From the NCBI GenBank assembly GCA_950295325.1, contig OX485808.1, positions 30,774,527 to 30,838,526 of the forward strand: a DNA stretch of 64,000 bases, written 5' to 3'. Below, piece by piece: positions 18,129 to 60,152 of this stretch. The notes below the pieces were generated by a model. That model saw only the letters and a list, made by a program, of their open reading frames with translations. It had not been told where the DNA came from and searched no databases. The DNA is from Polytrichum commune (Eukaryota > Streptophyta > Polytrichopsida > Polytrichales > Polytrichaceae). Numbering within the stretch: the stretch's first letter is position 1; each line of letters starts with the position of its first letter. Made by a program: the position numbers and the translations under genes.

Positions 18129-18396
18129 GATTTGTGATGTTTTGTGTATGATTTAGTAGAAATATATGCAAAGTATGATTTGATGGAGGATGGACAGAGA
18201 GCGATTCCTTTATGAAAATGACAAATATATAAGGCTTACTAGAGGAAGTTGCAAACTTCCCTAAGGTTTTGTGTTTTGCATATTGGTATATCACATAATT
18301 ATGTTGATTGTGATGTTTTGTGTATGATTTTCCAGGAACATATGCAAATTATGACAAACATACAAGGCTTTCTAGAGGAAGTTACAAACTTCCCTA
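18129..18396 (+). repeat. Partial duplication of the receptor 5' end
   Basis: The segment around the receptor start (18306-18396) contains tgtgatgttttgtgtatgatt, atatgcaaattatga, acaaggct and ctagaggaagtt-caaacttcc. It is preceded by a diverged copy at 18129-18262 with the same landmarks plus an insertion of about 45 bp. In the downstream copy the tract tgattttccag|gaac could act as a splice acceptor; the upstream copy reads tgatttagtagaaa. This makes the first coding exon uncertain. Confidence 0.65.
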
Positions 18397-20075
18397 TAAT
18401 AGAGGAGAATCCAGAGGTTTTGAATAGTAGGCAATGCAAGAATTTGTTTAGGAATATTAAAAAAGGTGTGGAAACGATTCAAAGGATGATTGATGGTTCC
18501 TATGGCGCGGATGTGTTCCACCAAGTAGAGCAAGAGATGCTTGGTATTATGAAGAAAGCAAGGCATATGGTTGAAGAATGTTGCAAGGTCGGTGATTGGT
18601 GTCGAGTGGTGGTAATGCAATTGAATAACAAAGAATCCTTCAGAGAACTTCTCTTGGACTTTGAGTATTGTTTCCACACAATGTGCGAAATATTTTGCCA
18701 ATCTTTTCCCAGTCGTGAAGTTGAAATCCAAGATATGGAAAAGTCTACAACATTCTACCCGACAAGCATTGATGAAGTTGAGCAAGACCAAAATGCAATA
18801 TTTGAACGACTTTCCAAGGAAGTTGATTTGTGCACAATTGACAATTGCCACGATCATTGCATGCTTTTGCGATATTTGATGGAACGAATAAGGGGGTTGC
18901 AGAAGGCCACGGGTGGTGAATTAGATAGCATCATCTTTCCAAATAACTTTGAATCCCCTGACTATGGGAAGCCACCTACGCCTTTGGGTAAGGGGGGGTT
19001 TGGGAGTGTGTACTCAACCCAATGGTTTGGATTTGAAACTGCTACAAAGGTTATCAAAGTTGAGAACCTTAATCTTAAGCATGAAACAGTTGTTCGCAAG
19101 GAGGCTAGTATTTTGGGTGGATTGGATCATCCCAACATCATCAAGTTTTTTGGTTGTGGCTTATCAACGAAATGTGACGCACGTGGAAGAGAAAGTAAAA
19201 CATTTGAAATCGTCATGGAACAAGGAATTTCGAGCTTAACAAGCTTTTTGGAAGGACCTAATATGCTCACAGATTCCATGAGAGTTGACATTTTGATACA
19301 AATTGCAAGTGGAATGTGTTATCTTCATGACATGAAAGTGGCGCATCGTGATTTGAAGCCCGATAATGTTATATTGACTTCAATGGGTGGCTCAACAATG
19401 GAACATGTGCATGTGAAGATACTTGATTTTGGGATTTCAAAGATCGAAGTGAAAAACTCCCCACAAGTGCCTACAAATGGAGGTTGTTTTGGTACTTGCG
19501 GATATATGGCACCTGAAGCTCATACAAAACGAAGATCAGAGGTGGATGCATTCAAAATGGATGTGTTTAGTTTTGGCACGTTGTGCTACGAGATTATTTC
19601 AAACAAGAGAGCTTACAATGGAGAGAGGAGGTATTCTGACTATGTGAGGTCTTTGGTAAATGAGAGACTGGAGTTACCCAAAACTTGCTCTAAAGATTTG
19701 AAATCATTGATACATGAATGTCGGTCTTTGGAGCCTTTGAATAGGCCCACATTCCTTGATATCTTTGAGAGGTTGAGAAAAGTCAAAAGTGATGCAATGC
19801 TCAAGGTTGCTAGTGATGTGAGAGTGGCTAAAATTTTGCACGAATCCACAACTCCTAGCAATTGTATTGAATATTCAAAGCGATGTTGGACAATGGTCAA
19901 ACAAAAACTCCATGCATTCAATATATGGGCAATTCTTCTTTTGTGGCAAATGTTTATCACCTTTGCTCAATGGTTGCCACATTACACATCAAATTTCTTG
20001 GAGGCAATTTCCATTTCGTCATCAAGTGCTCAAGAGAATTCAAACACCACAACATCAAATAAAATAGCTCATCAA
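18324..20075 (+). CDS. Receptor exon 1: DUF1221/HeLo-like domain plus protein kinase
   Basis: Residues about 10-130 are helical and match the plant MLKL-type DUF1221 pattern (NSRQCKNLF early, then VEECCKVGDWCRVVV), the region likened to the HeLo four-helix bundle of animal MLKL. The kinase spans about residues 215-500. It has a glycine loop GKGGFGSV (222-229), beta-3 lysine in ATKVIK (K242), catalytic HRDLKPDN (341-348), DFG (368-370) and APE (396-398). All residues needed for catalysis are present, unlike the pseudokinase of animal MLKL. A hydrophobic stretch (about 534-552, IWAILLLWQMFITFAQW) follows the kinase. The frame runs past the donor site (gtaagc, 20076) for four codons to a TGA, so a retained intron would give a stand-alone kinase. 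Confidence 0.85.
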
Positions 20076-23000
20076 GTAAGCATTGAATGAGGTCAACCTT
20101 CATTGTCAACTTTTAGTAGGGGTCAAAAGGTTCTGCATTGTGACTTTATTGGTAAAATTTGGAATTTAGTGGTATTTTTCTAGTGAGGTTTGTTGGATGG
20201 CAATGAAAGTTTTCATTTGGCATTTTATGCAGGTCACTAAGGAAACAAAGCGAATCTCCAAATTGATCGGACTCGAAGGAAATATATTGGAATTGGAGAA
20301 GCAACTTCACGACCTTGGTAGTTTGGGGATTGTTGGCATGGGAGGAATTGGCAAATCAACTTTGGCAAATGCTCTAACCGACCATGTTTCCCACAAATTT
20401 GGTGCGACATGCTTTGTGGGTGACTTTACATGTGAAAGTTGTACCATTCACGTGAAATACAAACTACAAGATGTGAAAGAACCACCTCAAACCAAAACAT
20501 TGAAAGAAGGGCACACATTTTTGAAACAATTGCAAGAGACCAAAAAAATCCTTATTGTTTTGGACAATGTGGGCAACGCAAGGCAAGTGGAAGAACTATT
20601 GGGTGATCGCACATGTCTTGATGTTCATGGTAGCAAACTTATTGCTACTTCCCGGAGTTGGGAGTCTTTGAAACAACATGTACTTATAAATGGTAAAGTA
20701 GATATGGAGACCCTTGATAAAGAGCAATCCAAAGAATTATTTTCTCTCCATGCATTTGCGACCAACCAACCATGTTTGCCATATTTGGAACATGTAGTTG
20801 AGAAGATTGTAAAGGCTTGTGATGGGCTTCCTTTGAGTTTGGAGGTGATGGGTAGTTATTTGTATGGAGAAGGGAGGTTGAGAATATGGGAGCGAACTTT
20901 ACAAAGGTTGTTGAGGGCAAGACATGATGGAAGCATAGATGGAAAAATATGGGAAACATTGAGGATTAGCTTTGATGAACTCGGTGAGAAAGAACAAAGT
21001 ATGTTTTTAGACATAAGTTGTTTCTTTTCCAAGGACTCGTGGACTAGTGATTGGTTTTATACAAAAGCAACACTACTTAGAATGTTTGATGATGACATCA
21101 AGAGTACCCATCACACATTGGAAAGTCTACAAGACAAATCGATGGTGAAATTTGACAAAAGGGACATTTTGGATATACATGATCAATTGCGGGATATGGG
21201 ACGCATGATTGTTGAAAAAGAGTTTCAACAAACTCGAGTTTGGAATTTATCTTTGACAACATTCCTCGAATATTGGAATCACAAGGTATGATACATAATG
21301 CAAATGAAATTGTAGATTCTTTGCCACTTTGTTAGAATATGGTGATAATTATACTAGAGAATTAATTGCATGTGGTGTTGTACTTGCAGGGCATAGAACT
21401 TGTGGAAGGCCTTTCATTTACTACGCTTGAAAGGAATAATTTGGCAATTCAAACAAATGTAGGTGTGAACACTATGAAAAACCTACGATTTTTGAGTATT
21501 AAGAATTGTGAACATATTGACATGCTTTTAGCTATCATTACAAAAACAGTGACATTGAAATGGTTGAGGATCCATTTCTCAACTCTATATGACAACATTT
21601 TACAGCAGCATACATATTTTATGAAGGAATTCATGAAGGTTGGTGAAGATCATCTTCAACAATTGGGTGTACTTGAACTATTTGAAATCATAATTTGCAC
21701 ACCTGCTATATTCCAAAATTTCCAACCCAAATTCTTGAAAGAAATATCTTTCATCAAGTGCACATTCCCACAAGGGGAATTTCCAATTGGCCTTGGAAAG
21801 ATAGAATTGGAAGAACTCAACATTTATGACTGTGAACAACTGAAAACACTACCCAAAGACTTAATCCATTTGACATCTCTACTCAGATTGGACATCTCAA
21901 AATGTACGACCTTGGAGGAGTTCCCTTCCGGAATATGCACTCTCAAGGCTTTGGAGGAATTAGATTTCAGTAAATGCAAATCTTTGAGGAAAATACCGGA
22001 AGGGTTGGGGGGGTTGACTTGTTTGAAGAAATTGTACATGTGGGATTGCGAGGCCTTGGAGGAGTTCCCTTCCGGAATATGCACTCTCAAGGCTTTGGAG
22101 GTATTATCATTCAAAGGATGCAAATCTTTGACGAAAATACCGGAAGGGTTGGGGGGGTTGACTTGTTTGAAGGAATTGTACATGTGGGATTGCGAGGCCT
22201 TGGAGGAGTTCCCTTCTGGAATATGCACTCTCAAGGCTTTGGAGGAATTACATTTCAATGGATGCAAATCTTTGAGGAAAATGCCGGAAGGGTTGGGGGG
22301 GTTGACTTGTTTGAAGAAATTGTACATGTGGGATTGCGAGGCCTTGGAGGAGTTCCCTTCCGGAATATGCACTCTCAAGGCTTTGGAGAAATTATATTTA
22401 AGTGGATGCAAATCCTTGAGGAAAATACCGGAAGGGTTGGGGGGGTTGACTTGTTTGAAGGAATTGTACATGGGGGATTGCGAGGCCTTGGAGGAGTTCC
22501 CTTCCGGAATATGCACTCTGAAGGCTTTGGAGGAATTATATTTCAATGGATGCAAATATTTGAGGAAAATACCGGAAGGGTTGGGGGGGTTGACTTGTTT
22601 GAAGAAATTGTACATGTGGGATTGCGAGGCCTTGGAGGAGTTCCCTTCCGGAATATGCACTCTCAAGGCTTTGGAGGAATTACATTTCAATGGATGCAAA
22701 TCCTTGAGGAAAATACCGGAAGGGTTGGGGGGGTTGACTTGTTTGAAGGAATTGTACATGGGGGATTGCGAGGCCTTGGAGGAGTTCCCTTCCGGAATAT
22801 GCACTCTCAAGGCTTTGGAGGAATTATATTTAAATGGATGCAAATCTTTGAGGAAAATACCAGAAGGGTTGGGGGGGTTGACTTGGTTGAAGAAATTGCA
22901 CATGTGGGATTGCGAGGCCTTGGAGGAGTTCCCTTCCGGAATATGCACTCTCAAGGCGTTGGAGGAATTACATTTCAATGGATGCAAATATTTGAGGAAA

Positions 23001-26000
23001 ATACCGGAAGGGTTGGGGGGGTTGACTTGTTTGAAGAAATTGAGGATGTGGGATTGCGAGGCCTTGGAGGAGTTCCCTTCCGGAATATGCACTCTCAAGG
23101 CATTGGAGGAATTACATTTCAATGGATGCAAATCTTTACGGAAAATACCGGAAGGGTTGGGGGGGTTGACTTGTTTGAAGAAATTGATTATGTGGGATTG
23201 TCAGGCCTTGGAGGAGTTCCCTTCCGGAATATGCACTCTCAAGGCTTTGGAGGAATTAACATTCAAAGGATGCAAATCTTTGAGGAAAATACCGGAAGGG
23301 TTGGGGGGGTTGACTTGTTTGAAGAAATTGTACATGTGGGATTGCGAGGCCTTGGAGGAGTTCCCTTCCGGAATATGCACTCTCAAGGCTTTGGAGGAAT
23401 TATATTTAAGTGGATGCAAATCCTTGAGGAAAATACCGGAAGGGTTGGGGGGGTTGACTTGTTTGAAGGAATTGTACATGTGGGATTGCGAGGCCTTGGA
23501 GGAGTTCCCTTCCGGAATATGCACTCTCAAGGCTTTGGAGGTATTATCATTCAAAGGATGCAAATCTTTACGGAAAATACCGGAAGGGTTGGGGGGGTTG
23601 ACTTGTTTGAAGGAATTGTACATGTGGGATTGCGAGGCCTTGGAGGAGTTCCCTTCTGGAATATGCACTCTCAAGGCTTTGGAGGAATTACATTTCAATG
23701 GATGCAAATCTTTGAGGAAAATGCCGGAAGGGTTGGGGGGGTTGACTTGTTTGAAGAAATTGTACATGTGGGATTGCGAGGCCTTGGAGGAGTTCCCTTC
23801 CGGAATATGCACTCTCAAGGCTTTGGAGAAATTATATTTAAGTGGATGCAAATCCTTGAGGAAAATACCGGAAGGGTTGGGGGGGTTGACTTGTTTGAAG
23901 GAATTGTACATGGGGGATTGCGAGGCCTTGGAGGAGTTCCCTTCCGGAATATGCACTCTGAAGGCTTTGGAGGAATTATATTTCAATGGATGCAAATATT
24001 TGAGGAAAATACCGGAAGGGTTGGGGGGGTTGACTTGTTTGAAGAAATTGTACATGTGGGATTGCGAGGCCTTGGAGGAGTTCCCTTCCGGAATATGCAC
24101 TCTCAAGGCTTTGGAGGAATTACATTTCAATGGATGCAAATCCTTGAGGAAAATACCGGAAGGGTTGGGGGGGTTGACTTGTTTGAAGGAATTGTACATG
24201 GGGGATTGCGAGGCCTTGGAGGAGTTCCCTTCCGGAATATGCACTCTGAAGGCTTTGGAGGAATTATATTTAAATGGATGCAAATCTTTGAGGAAAATAC
24301 CAGAAGGGTTGGGGGGGTTGACTTGGTTGAAGAAATTGCACATGTGGGATTGCGAGGCCTTGGAGGAGTTCCCTTCCGGAATATGCACTCTCAAGGCGTT
24401 GGAGGAATTACATTTCAATGGATGCAAATATTTGAGGAAAATACCGGAAGGGTTGGGGGGGTTGACTTGTTTGAAGAAATTGAGGATGTGGGATTGCGAG
24501 GCCTTGGAGGAGTTCCCTTCCGGAATATGCACTCTCAAGGCATTGGAGGAATTACATTTCAATGGATGCAAATCTTTACGGAAAATACCGGAAGGGTTGG
24601 GGGGGTTGACTTGTTTGAAGAAATTGATTATGTGGGATTGTCAGGCCTTGGAGGAGTTCCCTTCCGGAATATGCACTCTCAAGGCTTTGGAGGAATTAAC
24701 ATTCAAAGGATGCAAATCTTTGAGGAAAATACCGGAAGGGTTGGGGGGGGTTGACTTGTTTGAAGAAATTGTACATGTGGGATTGCGAGGCCTTGGAGGA
24801 GTTCCCTTCCGGAATATGCACTCTCAAGGCTTTGGAGGTATTATCATTCAAAGGATGCAAATCTTTGACGAAAATACCGGAAGGGTTGGGGGGGTTGACT
24901 TGTTTGAAGGAATTGTACATGTGGGATTGCGAGGCCTTGGAGGAGTTCCCTTCTGGAATATGCACTCTCAAGGCTTTGGAGGAATTACATTTCAATGGAT
25001 GCAAATCTTTGAGGAAAATGCCGGAAGGGTTGGGGGGGTTGACTTGTTTGAAGAAATTGTACATGTGGGATTGCGAGGCCTTGGAGGAGTTCCCTTCCGG
25101 AATATGCACTCTCAAGGCTTTGGAGAAATTATATTTAAGTGGATGCAAATCCTTGAGGAAAATACCGGAAGGGTTGGGGGGGTTGACTTGTTTGAAGGAA
25201 TTGTACATGGGGGATTGCGAGGCCTTGGAGGAGTTCCCTTCCGGAATATGCACTCTGAAGGCTTTGGAGGAATTATATTTCAATGGATGCAAATATTTGA
25301 GGAAAATACCGGAAGGGTTGGGGGGGTTGACTTGTTTGAAGAAATTGTACATGTGGGATTGCGAGGCCTTGGAGGAGTTCCCTTCCGGAATATGCACTCT
25401 CAAGGCTTTGGAGGAATTACATTTCAATGGATGCAAATCCTTGAGGAAAATACCGGAAGGGTTGGGGGGGTTGACTTGTTTGAAGGAATTGTACATGGGG
25501 GATTGCGAGGCCTTGGAGGAGTTCCCTTCCGGAATATGCACTCTGAAGGCTTTGGAGGAATTATATTTAAATGGATGCAAATCTTTGAGGAAAATACCAG
25601 AAGGGTTGGGGGGGTTGACTTGGTTGAAGAAATTGCACATGTGGGATTGCGAGGCCTTGGAGGAGTTCCCTTCCGGAATATGCACTCTCAAGGCGTTGGA
25701 GGAATTACATTTCAATGGATGCAAATATTTGGGGAAAATACCGGAAGGGTTGGGGGGGTTGACTTGTTTGAAGAAATTGAGGATGTGGGATTGCGAGGCC
25801 TTGGAGGAGTTCCCTTCCGGAATATGCACTCTCAAGGCATTGGAGGAATTACATTTCAATGGATGCAAATCTTTACGGAAAATACCGGAAGGGTTGGGGG
25901 GGTTGACTTGTTTGAAGAAATTGATTATGTGGGATTGTCAGGCCTTGGAGGAGTTCCCTTCCGGAATATGCACTCTCAAGGCTTTGGAGGAATTAACATT

Positions 26001-28290
26001 CAAAGGATGCAAATCTTTGAGGAAAATACCGGAAGGGTTGGGGGGGTTGACTTGTTTGAAGAAATTGTACATGTGGGATTGCGAGGCCTTGGAGGAGTTC
26101 CCTTCCGGAATATGCACTCTCAAGGCTTTGGAGGTATTATCATTCAAAGGATGCAAATCTTTGACGAAAATACCGGAAGGGTTGGGGGGGTTGACTTGTT
26201 TGAAGGAATTGTACATGTGGGATTGCGAGGCCTTGGAGGAGTTCCCTTCCGGAATATGCACTCTCAAGGCGTTGGAGGAATTACATTTCAATGGATGCAA
26301 ATATTTGAGGAAAATACCGGAAGGGTTGGGGGGGTTGACTTGTTTGAAGAAATTGAGGATGTGGGATTGCGAGGCCTTGGAGGAGTTCCCTTCCGGAATA
26401 TGCACTCTCAAGGCATTGGAGGAATTACATTTCAATGGATGCAAATCTTTACGGAAAATACCGGAAGGGTTGGGGGGGTTGACTTGTTTGAAGAAATTGA
26501 TTATGTGGGATTGTCAGGCCTTGGAGGAGTTCCCTTCCGGAATATGCACTCTCAAGGCTTTGGAGGAATTAACATTCAAAGGATGCAAATCTTTGAGGAA
26601 AATACCGGAAGGGTTGGGGGGGTTGACTTGTTTGAAGAAATTGTACATGTGGGATTGCGAGGCCTTGGAGGAGTTCCCTTCCGGAATATGCACTCTCAAG
26701 GCTTTGGAGGAATTATATTTAAGTGGATGCAAATCCTTGAGGAAAATACCGGAAGGGTTGGGGGGGTTGACTTGTTTGAAGGAATTGTACATGGGGGATT
26801 GCGAGGCCTTGGAGGAGTTCCCTTCCGGAATATGCACTCTGAAGGCTTTGGAGGAATTATATTTCAATGGATGCAAATATTTGAGGAAAATACCGGAAGG
26901 GTTGGGGGGGTTGACTTGTTTGAAGGAATTGTACATGGGGGATTGCGAGGCCTTGGAGGAGTTCCCTTCCGGAATATGCACTCTGAAGGCTTTGGAGGAA
27001 TTATATTTAAATGGATGCAAATCTTTGAGGAAAATACCAGAAGGGTTGGGGGGGTTGACTTGGTTGAAGAAATTGCACATGTGGGATTGCGAGGCCTTGG
27101 AGGAGTTCCCTTCCGGAATATGCACTCTCAAGGCGTTGGAGGAATTACATTTCAATGGATGCAAATATTTGAGGAAAATACCGGAAGGGTTGGGGGGGTT
27201 GACTTGTTTGAAGGAATTGATGATGTGGGATTGCGAGGCCTTGGAGGAGTTCCCTTCCGGAATATGCACTCTCAAGGCTTTGGAGGAATTATCATTCAGA
27301 GGATGCAAATCTTTGAGGAAAATACCGGAAGGGTTGGGGGGGTTGACTTGTTTGAAGAAATTGTACATGTGGGATTGCGAGGCCTTGGAGGAGTTCCCCT
27401 CCGGAATATGCACTCTCAAGGCGTTGGAGGAATTACATTTCAATGGATGCAAATCTTTGAGGAAAATACCGGAAGGGTTGGGGGGGTTGACTTGTTTGAA
27501 GGAATTGATGATGTGGGATTGCGAGGCCTTGGAGGAGTTCCCTTCCGGAATATGCACTCTCAAGGCTTTGGAGGAATTATCATTCAGAGGATGCAAATCT
27601 TTACGGAAAATACCGGAAGGGTTGGGGGGGTTGACTTGTTTGAAGAAATTGTACATGTGGGATTGCGAGGCCTTGGAGGAGTTCCCTTCCGGAATATGCA
27701 CTCTCAAGGCTTTGGAGGAATTATCATTCAGAGGATGCAAATCTTTACGGAAAATACCGGAAGGGTTGGGGGGGTTGACTTGTTTGAAGAAATTGATTAT
27801 GTGGGATTGCGAGGCCTTGGAGGAGTTCCCTTCCGGAATATGCACTCTCAAGGCTTTGGAGGAATTAGATTTCAAGGGATGCAAATCTTTTAGGAAAATA
27901 CCGGAAGGGTTGGGGGGGTTGACTTGTTTGAAGAAATTGATTATGTGGGATTGCGAGGCCTTGGAGGAGTTCCCTTCCGGAATATGCACTCTCAAGGCTT
28001 TGGAGGAATTCTATTTCAATGGATGCAAATCTTTGAGGAAAGTACCGGAAGGGTTGACTTGTTTGAAGAAATTGTACATGTGGGATTACGAGGCCTTGGA
28101 GGACTTCCCTTCCGGAATATGCACTCTCAAGGCTTTGGAGGAATTATCATTCAACGGAGGCAAATCTTTGACGAAAATACCGGAAGGGTTGGGGGGGTTA
28201 AGTTGTTTGAAGCAATTAGGCATGAGGGATTGTGAGGTCTTGGAGGAGTTGCCTTCTGGAGTATGCGTTGTTAAGGCTTTGGAGGTATAA
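18324..28290 (+). CDS. Kinase-NB-ARC-LRR immune receptor (PNL class) with giant LRR array
   Basis: Three exons are inferred: 18324-20075, 20233-21285 and 21390-28290. Both introns (157 and 104 bp) are GT-AG and phase 0, and joining them keeps one frame through kinase, NB-ARC and the first LRRs. The architecture is DUF1221/HeLo-like helical bundle, protein kinase, hydrophobic segment, NB-ARC, then about 90 LRRs of 24 residues. Allowing for one extra G at 24743-24750, the product is about 3,230 residues, far longer than typical plant NLRs (about 900-1,500). Kinase-NBS-LRR receptors are a moss class; by family knowledge the protein would sense pathogen molecules or host perturbation through the LRRs and signal through kinase and helical domains. 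The extra G puts the second half of the LRR region in another frame, so the allele may be defective, or the G may be an assembly error. The start is the first in-frame ATG; 18342 is the alternative. Confidence 0.8.
20233..21285 (+). CDS. Receptor exon 2: NB-ARC nucleotide-binding domain
   Basis: The 351 residues carry the NB-ARC motifs in order: P-loop GMGGIGKST (about residue 619 of the whole protein), kinase-2 LIVLDNV (Asp near 695), RNBS-B GSKLIATSR (717), GLPL (782), an RNBS-D-like FLDISCFF, and an MHD-like IHD at 899-901 followed by QLRDMGRMIV. The motif styles (LDNV, FLDISCF, HD.LRDMGR.IV) are closer to TIR-type than CC-type NB-ARCs. The domain should act as an ADP/ATP switch. The donor after NHK and the acceptor before GIELVEGLSF sit where many TNL genes also have the NB-ARC/LRR intron. 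No start codon is needed because the exon joins exon 1 in frame. Confidence 0.9.
21390..28290 (+). CDS. Receptor exon 3: LRR domain, about 45 tandem 48-residue units
   Basis: About 160 residues of irregular LRR-linker (with ELEELNIYDCEQLKTLP) lead into the array. Each unit holds two 24-residue plant LRRs: LTCLKKLYMWDCEALEEFP plus SGICT, then LKALEELHFNGCKSLRKIP plus EGLGG. Unit 1 starts at 21870, and units 2-20 follow at exact 144-bp steps. After one inserted G, units 21-43 continue from 24751. Unit 43 is 135 bp, and units 44 and 45 (28054, 28198) are divergent. The frame closes at TAA 28288-28290, where other units read gtatta. Without correction for the extra G, the upstream frame would read a non-LRR repeat to 27893. 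Confidence 0.8.
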
Positions 28291-28920
28291 GTTTTCAAAG
28301 GGTGCAAATCTTTGAGAGAAATACTGGAAGGGTTGGGGGGGTTGAATTATTTGAAAGAATTAGGCATGAGGGATTGCGAGGCCTTGGAGGAGTTCCCTTC
28401 TAGAGTATCCACTCTCAAGGCTTTGGAGGAATTAGATTTGTGGAAAATACTGGAAGGGTTGGGGGGGTTGACTGATTTGAAGAAATTGATCATTTGGGAA
28501 TGCAAGGCTCCAAAGGAGTTCCCTACAAGAATATGAATTGTGAAGGCTTTGGACAAACTATGAATCCGTGAATGCATATGTTTGAAGAAAATATAGGATG
28601 GGTTGGGGGTTGATTTGTTTGAAGAAATTATACAAAGATGATTGTGAGGCCTTGGAAGAGTTCCTTTCCGGAATTTGCAGTCTAAGGCTTTAAAGGAATC
28701 ATCATTCAATGAACGCAACTCTTTGAGGAAAGTAACGGAAGTGTTTGGGGGGTTTGACTTGTTTGAAGAAATTGAGATAGTGAGGCGTTGGAGGAGTTTC
28801 GTATTGAGCTATGGACTTAAGGAGTTTGGAGGCGTTATCATTGTACTGTAGGATATCTTTGAGGTATCTACGGGATGGATTTGAAGGTTTTTGGTGTTTG
28901 AAGTAATTGTCCATGGCTTG
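21870..28920 (+). repeat. 144-bp coding satellite with higher-order repeat and decaying 3' edge
   Basis: About 49 units are traceable: 45 in the coding frame to 28,341, then decayed units at 28,342 (126 bp), 28,468, 28,610 and about 28,757. Central units are close to identical. A higher-order repeat is visible: units 2-11 (22014-23453) recur as units 12-20 at a 1,440-bp offset with very few differences, and again from unit 21 at a 9-unit offset; shorter partial blocks follow (units 30-33 and 34-38). Edge units are the most diverged, as expected when unequal exchange homogenises the centre of an array. Every central unit has the tract TTGGGGGGGTTG at its end. Confidence 0.95.
24743..24750 (+). 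other. Single-G insertion (G8 instead of G7) shifting the LRR frame
   Basis: Other units read ttgggggggttgactt with seven G. At the unit 20/21 boundary there are eight (ttgggggggg then ttgacttg at 24751). Periodicity before and after is exactly 144 bp, so this is one inserted base. It moves the LRR reading into a new frame. A homopolymer inside a near-perfect repeat is prone both to real slippage and to sequencing or consensus error. Confidence 0.9.
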
Positions 28921-31559: not shown

Positions 31560-32247
31560 ATATTTTATATATATATAAATATATAAATATATGTATATAA
31601 TATAAATATATGTATGTATATATGTATATATGTATATAATATATGTATATAATATATGTATATAATATATGTATATAATATATGTATGTATATAATATGT
31701 ATGTATATAATATGTATGTATATAATATGTATGTATATAATATGTATGTATATAATATGTATGTATATAATATATATGTATATAATATATAATATATAAA
31801 TATGTATACATTTACAGTAAATATATACAGTATATATTTACTGTAATTATATACAGTATATATTTACTGTAATTATATACAGTATATATTTACTGTAATT
31901 ATATACAGTATATATTTACTGTAATTATATACAGTATATATTTACTGTAATTATATACAGTATATATTTACTGTAATTATATACAGTATATATTTACTGT
32001 AATTATATACTATATATATTTACTTTAATTATATACTATATATATACTATATATATTTACTGTAATTATATACTATATATATTTACTGTAATTATATACT
32101 ATATATTTACTATATATATTTACTGTAATTATATACTATATATATACTATATATATTTACTGTAATTATATACTATATATTTACTATATATATTTACTGT
32201 AATTATATACTATATATATACTATATATATTTACTGTAAATATATAC
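31560..32247. repeat. AT minisatellites inside the CACTA element
   Basis: Two arrays adjoin. From about 31,600 to 31,800 a 15-bp unit (gtatgtatataatat) repeats. From about 31,810 to 32,247 a 26-bp unit built around cagtatatatttactgtaa repeats, shifting to ctatatatatttactgtaa variants. The second unit is close to a palindrome (acagta...tactgt) and could extrude cruciforms. The long open frame on the minus strand here is only an effect of the repeat. Confidence 0.85.
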
Positions 32248-58298: not shown

Positions 58299-58985
58299 TA
58301 TATGCCAAAAGAGTTCTTCAAATTTCCTATTGAAGAATACATGCGGATGAGAGGTTATTCTTTTCTACCTTAGTCCAAATGGGATGAACAGGTCAGGGAT
58401 GAGAATGTTGCCAGCTGGCAGATACGGCTGCTGATGACTCATCGTCCACGTCACTCCCTGTCTCCTCTGTCACTCCTGGTTCGGGAAGAAGAACTGTAAT
58501 CTTCAAACCCTGGGAGGCCAATTCGATCCGCAAGATTTTTGCAGGAATCGCATTGCAATTTGCCACAGCGGGAGGCGGCAGCTCTCTGGTAGGAGAAAAT
58601 TCGCTTTCTCCACCTTCTTCTCCTTCCAATCTTAGCGCAAATTAAAACAGATAACAACGAATATTCCTTATACCTTCGAGATTTTGAAATTTGCAGAATT
58701 CCCAAGTGTGCACATCGGTGTGGCAGGATCGGCATGGGTTCTAAAGGTAAAGTGCCAAATTGAAGAGAAATTTGGAGAGACTCAATCTTCAGAACAATCT
58801 GGTGGTACTTGTAGCTTTGGAGGAGTGAGAATAATTTTGAGCCATTTCTGTATCCTTCTCCTTGTCGAAGGGGTTTAGGGGAGTAGGAGAAGTCCTCTTC
58901 TTGTGGAAGGGGTTTAGTAAGTGCAATTGGTGAGAGTTGGGGTTTAATTCCACAAGTGAGTGGAGGCGGGCTATATTCGAGCACC

Positions 58986-60152
58986 ATGCACATGGCATGT
59001 GCTACGGTATCATGGCGTCCATCATCATCCATTACCGCAAATCATATTGATTCAGTTTCGAGCTCTTCGAAAATTGGAGCGAGAGTGTTGGTGGAGAGGA
59101 TACAGATACAGCGACAACAGCCATGGCAATTGAAGAAGAAGAGATCGGTGGCAATTCCGGGGTTGGTTAGGGTTAGGGCATTAGGTTACCCTTCCGACAA
59201 TGAAGACTCCTCCCATGGTGTGACGCCATATCTTGCAAGGAAGGGAGCGAAACTGTTTGCTGAAGAATCCATAGGCGCTCAGCACGGCGAGGGATTCTCG
59301 ATGTTCAGACCGACCGGGCCGTTACATGTTGACGTGGACTTTCTAAACGACCGAATGCAGGAGCGGGGGCTACGCAGGATCAGGTATGCCATGAAACCGG
59401 ATGAAGCATTCGGGTTAATTTTCTCCTGGGACAATGTACTGCTAAATACACATGCGTTGCGTATGGTGGCATGGAGCCGTCTCGCTGCGGAGGAAGGGAA
59501 AAAATTGCCTTCGAGCGCGGAGAAGCAGAAGCAGTTGCTATGTATGAACGTGGAGCGGGGTTTAGAAGGTGTTCTGGACTGGGGGGAGGGTTTAAGCTTG
59601 CGCGAGGGGGAAGTAGCTCGGTTGACGAAGAGATTGGCTACTTTGTACTGTGAGGAATTAGCTGCGGTACAGGTGCCGATGGAGGGGCTAAGATCATGGT
59701 TAGATGCACTCTTAACGGCCGGGGTGCCATGTGCCATCGCATCTTCCATGGATAGGTTAAGCCTCCTTGGAGCTCTGCAAAGGATGGGATTGTTGAAGTA
59801 CTTCAGGGCAGTTGTGAGCGAGGAGGATGGCATGGACTCCATTGCACATAGGTTTCTCTCGGCCGCGGTGAAACTCGATCGGCCGCCTGCGAAATGCGTT
59901 GTGTTCGAGGATGACCCTCGCGGTGTGGTTGCAGCTCATAATTGCACCATGAAAGCTGTCGCCATTATAGGATCCCATCCTGCGTATGAGCTCACTCAGG
60001 CCGATTTAGCCGTCAGCAGCTTCGCCGACCTATCTGTGATGAATTTACGGCGGTTGTTTGCGAACAAGGGAGCTGAGTTCATGGATCTGCAGAAACAAAG
60101 TGAACCGAAGAAACCTGCAATGAGGAAGATCACAATGGATACGTGGTACTGA
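58986..60152 (+). CDS. HAD-superfamily protein, PYRP2-like, probably plastid-targeted and catalytically altered
   Basis: Single exon, 388 residues from the ATG at 58986 (CACCATGC context); the frame is open 10 codons further but without an ATG. Residues 1-60 are Ser/Arg/Lys-rich with few acidic residues, like a chloroplast transit peptide. The HAD domain spans about 140-345. Motif I reads IFSWDN (S147, D149) where active HADs have DxD. Motif II is IASS (S253-S254). The motif III region around D284 lacks the usual KP. Motif IV is FEDDP (307-311). The tail HPAYELTQADLAV with DLSVMNLRRLF is like that of Arabidopsis PYRP2-type phosphatases, which act in flavin metabolism. Loss of the nucleophile Asp and the motif III Lys suggests no ordinary phosphatase activity. 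Family call is firm, substrate unknown. Confidence 0.85.
   Translation: MHMACATVSWRPSSSITANHIDSVSSSSKIGARVLVERIQIQRQQPWQLKKKRSVAIPGLVRVRALGYPSDNEDSSHGVTPYLARKGAKLFAEESIGAQHGEGFSMFRPTGPLHVDVDFLNDRMQERGLRRIRYAMKPDEAFGLIFSWDNVLLNTHALRMVAWSRLAAEEGKKLPSSAEKQKQLLCMNVERGLEGVLDWGEGLSLREGEVARLTKRLATLYCEELAAVQVPMEGLRSWLDALLTAGVPCAIASSMDRLSLLGALQRMGLLKYFRAVVSEEDGMDSIAHRFLSAAVKLDRPPAKCVVFEDDPRGVVAAHNCTMKAVAIIGSHPAYELTQADLAVSSFADLSVMNLRRLFANKGAEFMDLQKQSEPKKPAMRKITMDTWY

Follow-up and report, generated by a model that had tools for sequence, protein, structure and literature searches.

A predicted moss kinase–NB-ARC–LRR gene carries a long array of near-identical double leucine-rich repeats that varies mostly at strand residues

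Diversification of the leucine-rich repeats (LRRs) of nucleotide-binding LRR receptors (NLRs) is usually studied between alleles or paralogues. Angiosperm resistance (R) genes such as flax L/M and RPP5 have internal LRR duplications, with copy number altered by unequal exchange. In highly variable NLRs (hvNLRs), as presented in the sections of PMC8226289 used here, diversity lies on exposed concave-strand residues of the LxxLxLxx motif, aromatics included. Lamprey variable lymphocyte receptors (VLRs) start from an incomplete gene that is completed in developing lymphocytes through LRR-module insertion (PMC3900441, in part). Relaxed and positive selection can drive apart the repeat copies of one protein, which are also homogenised to some extent (PMC5120217, in part). 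Mosses have a class of protein kinase–nucleotide-binding site (NBS)–LRR genes (PNL) with phase-0 introns at both domain boundaries, phases that HNL genes share (PMC3352924, in part); such receptors have been named Pkn-NLRs, and kinase-NLRs are present in monocots too (PMC11218826, in part). Here we describe a candidate PNL gene of Polytrichum commune in a 64,000-nt stretch (the window; assembly GCA_950295325.1, contig OX485808.1, positions 30,774,527 to 30,838,526 of the forward strand). The genome comprises 408 Mb in 64 contigs, and the window sits on one of 44.65 Mb (C6). The LRR exon of the gene contains 42 tandem units (u2–u43) in window positions 22014–28053, each unit of 144 bp, or 48 codons, corresponding to two 24-residue LRRs.

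Judged by the predicted exons, this array forms the LRR exon of a kinase–NB-ARC–LRR gene of the moss PNL class. Three consecutive open exons give an N-terminal kinase, NB-ARC and, from 21390, a C-terminal LRR region (Pfam LRR_14, E 2e-114; an LRR solenoid in the predicted model), and domain order and both phase-0 introns, the latter read from sequence alone, are common to the class. The donor at 20076 follows 609 whole codons of the kinase exon, in which we could read what we take to be HRD and DFG motifs. Compared with the angiosperm R-gene duplications, the units are far more numerous and more alike. Unlike the PNL class as described in the sections of PMC3352924 and PMC11218826 used, the LRR exon here holds dozens of near-identical double LRRs, and the covered parts of PMC5120217, a general survey that shares within-protein repeat divergence with our locus, have no NLR array of comparable scale. 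Among the papers listed by searches of open-licence PMC full text, none dealt with moss NLRs carrying homogenised or hypervariable LRR arrays, which does not prove that there are none. As in hvNLRs, variability falls on codons predicted to lie on strands (8, 32 and 34), with the difference that it occurs among units of one gene and paralogues of one genome and not between alleles of individuals. The original prediction for this stretch had likened the array to lamprey VLR modules; the likeness to lamprey and hagfish VLRs holds for tandem LRR modules and a variable concave face, but here one exon, in the single assembly, holds the finished and continuous array and is coupled to NB-ARC and kinase, with nothing somatic seen and no incomplete germline gene awaiting module insertion. 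We consider it probable that the gene encodes a moss-type PNL intracellular immune receptor with a long ligand-facing array of near-identical double LRRs, in which germline copying and re-mixing makes new concave surfaces; it is apparently an extreme NLR diversified within the gene, so that scaffold constraint and surface change can be measured within one sequence.

Within-window pair statistics were computed on u2–u42 (41 units), u43 being dropped for its irregular end. Codons 6, 8, 10, 30, 32 and 34 carry 67.7% of the amino-acid-changing pairwise codon differences, a share that is 67.3% in the in-frame u2–u20 and 68.7% among 19 distinct units; no random six-codon set reached 67.7% or 68.7% (0/200,000). 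The same six codons hold 0.5% of the synonymous pairwise differences. In the predicted structure they are located on or beside LRR beta-strands, at alternating strand positions. An even spread of differences, or variable sites at buried positions, had been named beforehand as speaking against the claim that variation falls mainly at exposed beta-strand codons; what we found is two-thirds of the change on six codons that the model places on or beside strands. The codon states that had been listed (e.g. TAC, AGG, ATT, ATG and CAC at codon 8) are all present in the units. The claim holds in its main part, but amino-acid changes also occur at codons 33 (F/L, a core position), 38 (S/Y), 40, 3, 13, 42 and 39. 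A second claim, that the scaffold hardly changes even at synonymous sites, proved wrong: codons 27, 25, 39, 40, 38, 43, 12, 20 and 19 vary synonymously, and 41% of unit pairs differ synonymously at codon 27, part of the DC-ALEEFPSGICTLKALE stretch. Outside codons 5, 6, 8, 10, 11 and their counterparts, the proportion of synonymous differences (pS) reaches 0.08 within the window and 0.26 across the family.

The pattern recurs across related arrays in the genome. Arrays were drawn from the 150 of 225 search matches that were listed, which involve contigs C1–C7, and further arrays may exist. Of 27 stretches fetched, 26 yielded units (L035 yielded none) and were merged into 24 arrays in addition to that of the window (25 in total); L016/L017 and L031/L032 were each merged as a single array, and the overlapping fetches L001–L008 were excluded. 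The L026 stretch does not extend to its NB-ARC exon and may begin inside the array, and the in-frame status of its first units was assumed. Units with at least 24 of 38 scaffold residues were included (799 units); most statistics used those with at least 30 of 38, no stop and, for the window, a start at or before 28060 (719 units, 571 distinct). Because scoring used scaffold positions only, the exposed codons did not bias unit finding. The proportion of nonsynonymous differences (pN) relative to overall pS, pooled and bootstrapped over arrays, was 2.59 (1.95–3.37) at codon 8, 2.30 (1.83–2.86) at codon 32 and 1.69 (1.35–2.08) at codon 34; codons 10, 11, 41, 6, 40 and 2 followed, from 0.90 down to 0.64. 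The six codons jointly gave 1.42 (1.11–1.78) and the non-exposed codons 0.23. In 23/25 arrays pN at the six codons exceeded the array's own pS, the exceptions being L028 (0.99) and L030 (0.97). By event counts on tree edges, the six codons together score 1.25 and the non-exposed ones 0.34, with 1.54, 1.45 and 1.57 at codons 34, 8 and 32. On these comparisons, amino-acid change is strongest at residues 8, 32 and 34, and weaker at 6, 10 and 30.

The layout of the window array shows units copied as blocks. The 42 units that had been predicted could all be counted, the last (u43) shortened and ending irregularly, but only 20 are distinct at the DNA level (labels A–T), in the order ABCDEFGHIJ KBCDELGHI ABCDELMHI ANHIJDLG OPQRST. 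Since the eight-unit blocks u3–10, u13–20 and u22–29 (1152 bp) differ pairwise by 1, 2 and 1 bases, much of the array must have been copied very recently, and recent block duplication accounts for a good part of its homogeneity. Recombination has apparently also occurred inside units. Among 19 regular distinct units, 16/66 pairs of 12 informative sites failed the four-gamete test (minimum number of recombinations, Rm = 3), although recurrent mutation could explain some of these pairs. Each of units D, N, O, Q and R can be rebuilt exactly from other units of the window with a single crossover: N combines the first part of a B/D/F/K/L-type unit with the rest of G, and R the first part of an A/C/E/J/P-type unit with the rest of Q. 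The nearest relative lies within the unit's own array for 64% of the 719 units against 5% expected, and homogenisation within arrays is real. While 33/571 distinct unit types are common to some arrays, none of the window's types (0/23) was found exactly in the other 24, a pattern that speaks against units having often moved into the window array in recent times.

Homogenisation had been proposed as what keeps the frame of the units constant; the block copies bear this out in part, but purifying selection also holds the scaffold. Two loci, L024 and L034, have strongly diverged kinase, NB-ARC and N-terminal LRR regions (53–55%, 61–63% and 39–41% of residues shared with the window, respectively), yet the array scaffold is kept despite a synonymous pS of 0.65. 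Scaffold pN between the window and these loci is 0.095–0.10 at that pS (ratio 0.15), which we take as a mark of purifying selection, compared with 0.21–0.22 at pS 0.54 (ratio about 0.40) for NB-ARC. The scaffold thus appears to be under stronger constraint than NB-ARC, and recent homogenisation alone would hardly explain this.

Together, the comparisons show that block duplication copies units, that units are mosaic-like, that purifying selection acts on the solenoid scaffold and that most change falls at strand residues. We propose that unequal exchange would be the copying process, and that, from one germline generation to the next, copying and re-mixing of a standing set of residue states would yield new concave surfaces, selection keeping the solenoid while favouring change at strand residues. 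The variable residues may bind pathogen proteins or guarded host proteins; binding would release the NB-ARC switch, the N-terminal kinase would then signal, and the resulting diversity would benefit the receptor. With 25 comparable arrays in one genome, unequal exchange within a gene as a source of new specificities in early land plants becomes testable. A diversity-generating mutator (templated or targeted single-codon hypermutation) was rejected as the source of the states. Those at codon 8 (TAC, ATG, ATT, AGG, CAC) differ by up to three bases, and pairs of units with 47 identical codons and two or three bases changed in the remaining one are rare (6/472 pairs at distance 2–3; 3/6 at codon 8), so no special mutator is needed.

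Several results weigh against this interpretation. Mean pLDDT (predicted local distance difference test) was near 73 in four of the five structure models, and ligand binding and function of the array residues are putative. Codons 10, 6 and 30 stay below 1 (pN/overall pS of 0.90, 0.74 and 0.48), and against their own pS the six codons jointly reach only 1.11 (0.90–1.37). Off-strand codon 2 has a tree-edge count of 1.28 over the whole tree and leads all codons in amino-acid changes on edges of at most 3 bases. On the 79 one-base edges, the ratio of nonsynonymous to synonymous rates is 0.92 for exposed and 0.66 for non-exposed codons; at rates this close, mutations enter almost evenly, and it is among older variants that the excess accumulates. 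Between the window and the diverged loci, exposed pN (0.30) is lower than synonymous pS (0.65), which suggests that only a restricted set of exposed states is in use. Scaffold nonsynonymous/synonymous ratios are 1.45 after frameshifts, little above 1.27 before. The original prediction had units both copied and shuffled; block copies and mosaic-like units agree with this, but the exposed residues are still linked within units (mutual information of 0.81 bits vs 0.16 shuffled for residues 32/34, and 0.45 vs 0.18 for 8/32, in the 571 distinct units) and shuffling is incomplete. The fixation index (Fst) between arrays is 0.26 at codons 8/32/34 against 0.43 at synonymous third positions, but first and second scaffold positions match the lower value at 0.26, and the interval bootstrapped for the difference (−0.28 to +0.03, 61 resamples) touches zero; this contrast was therefore set aside as indecisive proof of balancing selection. 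Finally, the array frame is broken after unit 20 by a +1 shift that the prediction missed, and in the assembly only units 1–20 (40 LRRs) are in frame (Table 1).

Table 1. Predicted features of the gene and its array (window coordinates)
Feature	Position	Strand	Remarks
Protein kinase exon	18249..20075	+	Pfam Pkinase E 3.1e-41; start codon unsettled
Intron 1, phase 0	20076..20232	+	GTAAG ... TTTTATGCAG; splice sites picked by eye
NB-ARC and winged-helix exon	20233..21285	+	Pfam NB-ARC E 2.3e-24, WHD_ROQ1 E 1.2e-9
Intron 2, phase 0	21286..21389	+	GTATG ... TACTTGCAG; splice sites picked by eye
Irregular N-terminal LRR region	21390..21869	+	translation in array frame
Unit 1, diverged first 48-codon unit	21870..22013	+	
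Units 2–20, 19 double-LRR units of 144 bp each	22014..24749	+	in frame with kinase and NB-ARC exons
G8 tract, +1 frameshift	24743..24750	+	G7 at ends of other units u2–u42
Units 21–43, 23 units	24751..28053	+	out of frame with upstream exons in assembly; shifted frame open to 27893
Degenerate end units with LRR-frame stop	28054..28290	+	
Decayed repeat remnants, several stops	28291..28774	+	

This break raises the possibility, serious but in our judgement short of the likelier case, that the window holds a pseudogene or a truncated allele whose pattern was inherited from functional relatives and is inactive here. Unit 20 ends in G8, which shifts u21–u43 into another frame that stays open for 1047 residues; the end units are decayed, and many sister arrays are broken too. 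On the other hand, the kinase and NB-ARC exons are open, the 20 in-frame units rank among the longer uninterrupted runs of the sister loci, and misassembly of a G7 run may account for the one surplus G.

Neutral minisatellite-like expansion and shrinkage, by slippage and unequal exchange, with the scaffold constrained just enough to fold and the strand codons drifting, would account for the near-neutral distribution of one-base differences, for the ratio of the six codons to their own pS (1.11, 0.90–1.37), for half of the window array being out of frame and for the stops and frameshifts common across loci. We regard it as unlikely: three codons have pN/overall pS above 1 with array-bootstrap intervals excluding 1, and both LRRs of the unit show the excess at alternating residues of the strand.

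The array might instead be a multivalent or structural scaffold, for example for a repetitive ligand or for receptor assembly, and not a set of different recognition modules. The units are near identical and residue classes recur at fixed places: of the 571 distinct units, 69% have F, W, Y or H at position 10, and 86% and 90% have a charged residue at positions 6 and 30, respectively. Such a role is rather improbable given 270 different six-residue exposed combinations in those same units and pN/pS above 1 at three codons.

About equally improbable is that the receptor resembles a germline contingency locus, with the G7 tract that closes most units as a mutable switch that, together with block duplication, rapidly changes length and surface. 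Unit junctions numbered 772, of which 14 were left unclassified because their spacing fell outside 100–190 bases; among the remaining 758 in the 25 arrays, 64 are frameshifted, 50 of them in the seven-base tract and spread over 15/25 arrays, counts that include copies spread by unit duplication and are hence non-independent. Loss of one G turns GGG GGG TTG A into GGG GGT TGA, a stop at the unit boundary. In the consensus unit the one-base-loss frame accordingly opens with a stop, and the gain frame is without any stop. An immediate stop followed one-base tract loss in 41/43 cases, and in 33/43 it was the first stop of that unit's frame; the first-unit frame ends exactly at a unit boundary in L009, L012, L013, L021, L022, L026, L027, L028 and the fragment L017. 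If the tract is a switch, G loss would set receptor length and park downstream units as an untranslated reservoir, and G gain would continue reading in the second frame. That a homopolymer sets receptor length is a second testable idea. Stop-bearing units are fewer before the first shift (16/433) than after it (42/366; p = 2.9e-5), which supports LRR-frame translation upstream. Somatic VLR-like assembly, with units rearranged in body cells as a repertoire, shares the geometry of LRR modules with a variable concave face (PMC3900441, in part; predicted structure), but is extremely improbable: in the one assembly a single exon, next to open exons for kinase and NB-ARC, contains the whole array, although no search was aimed at donor cassettes.

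The surroundings of the gene are rich in related loci: at least 12 array-bearing loci, including that of the window, lie within about 0.93 Mb of C6 (29.87–30.80 Mb). The longest stretches, L016+L017 and L031+L032, comprise ~85 and ~67 units with neighbouring fetches and are broken by frameshifts. Downstream of the array, window positions 31566–32247 contain AT-rich tandem repeats with periods of 15, 26 and 37, and an open reading frame at 58956–60152 has a haloacid dehalogenase-like hydrolase domain (Pfam HAD_2, E 5.8e-13).

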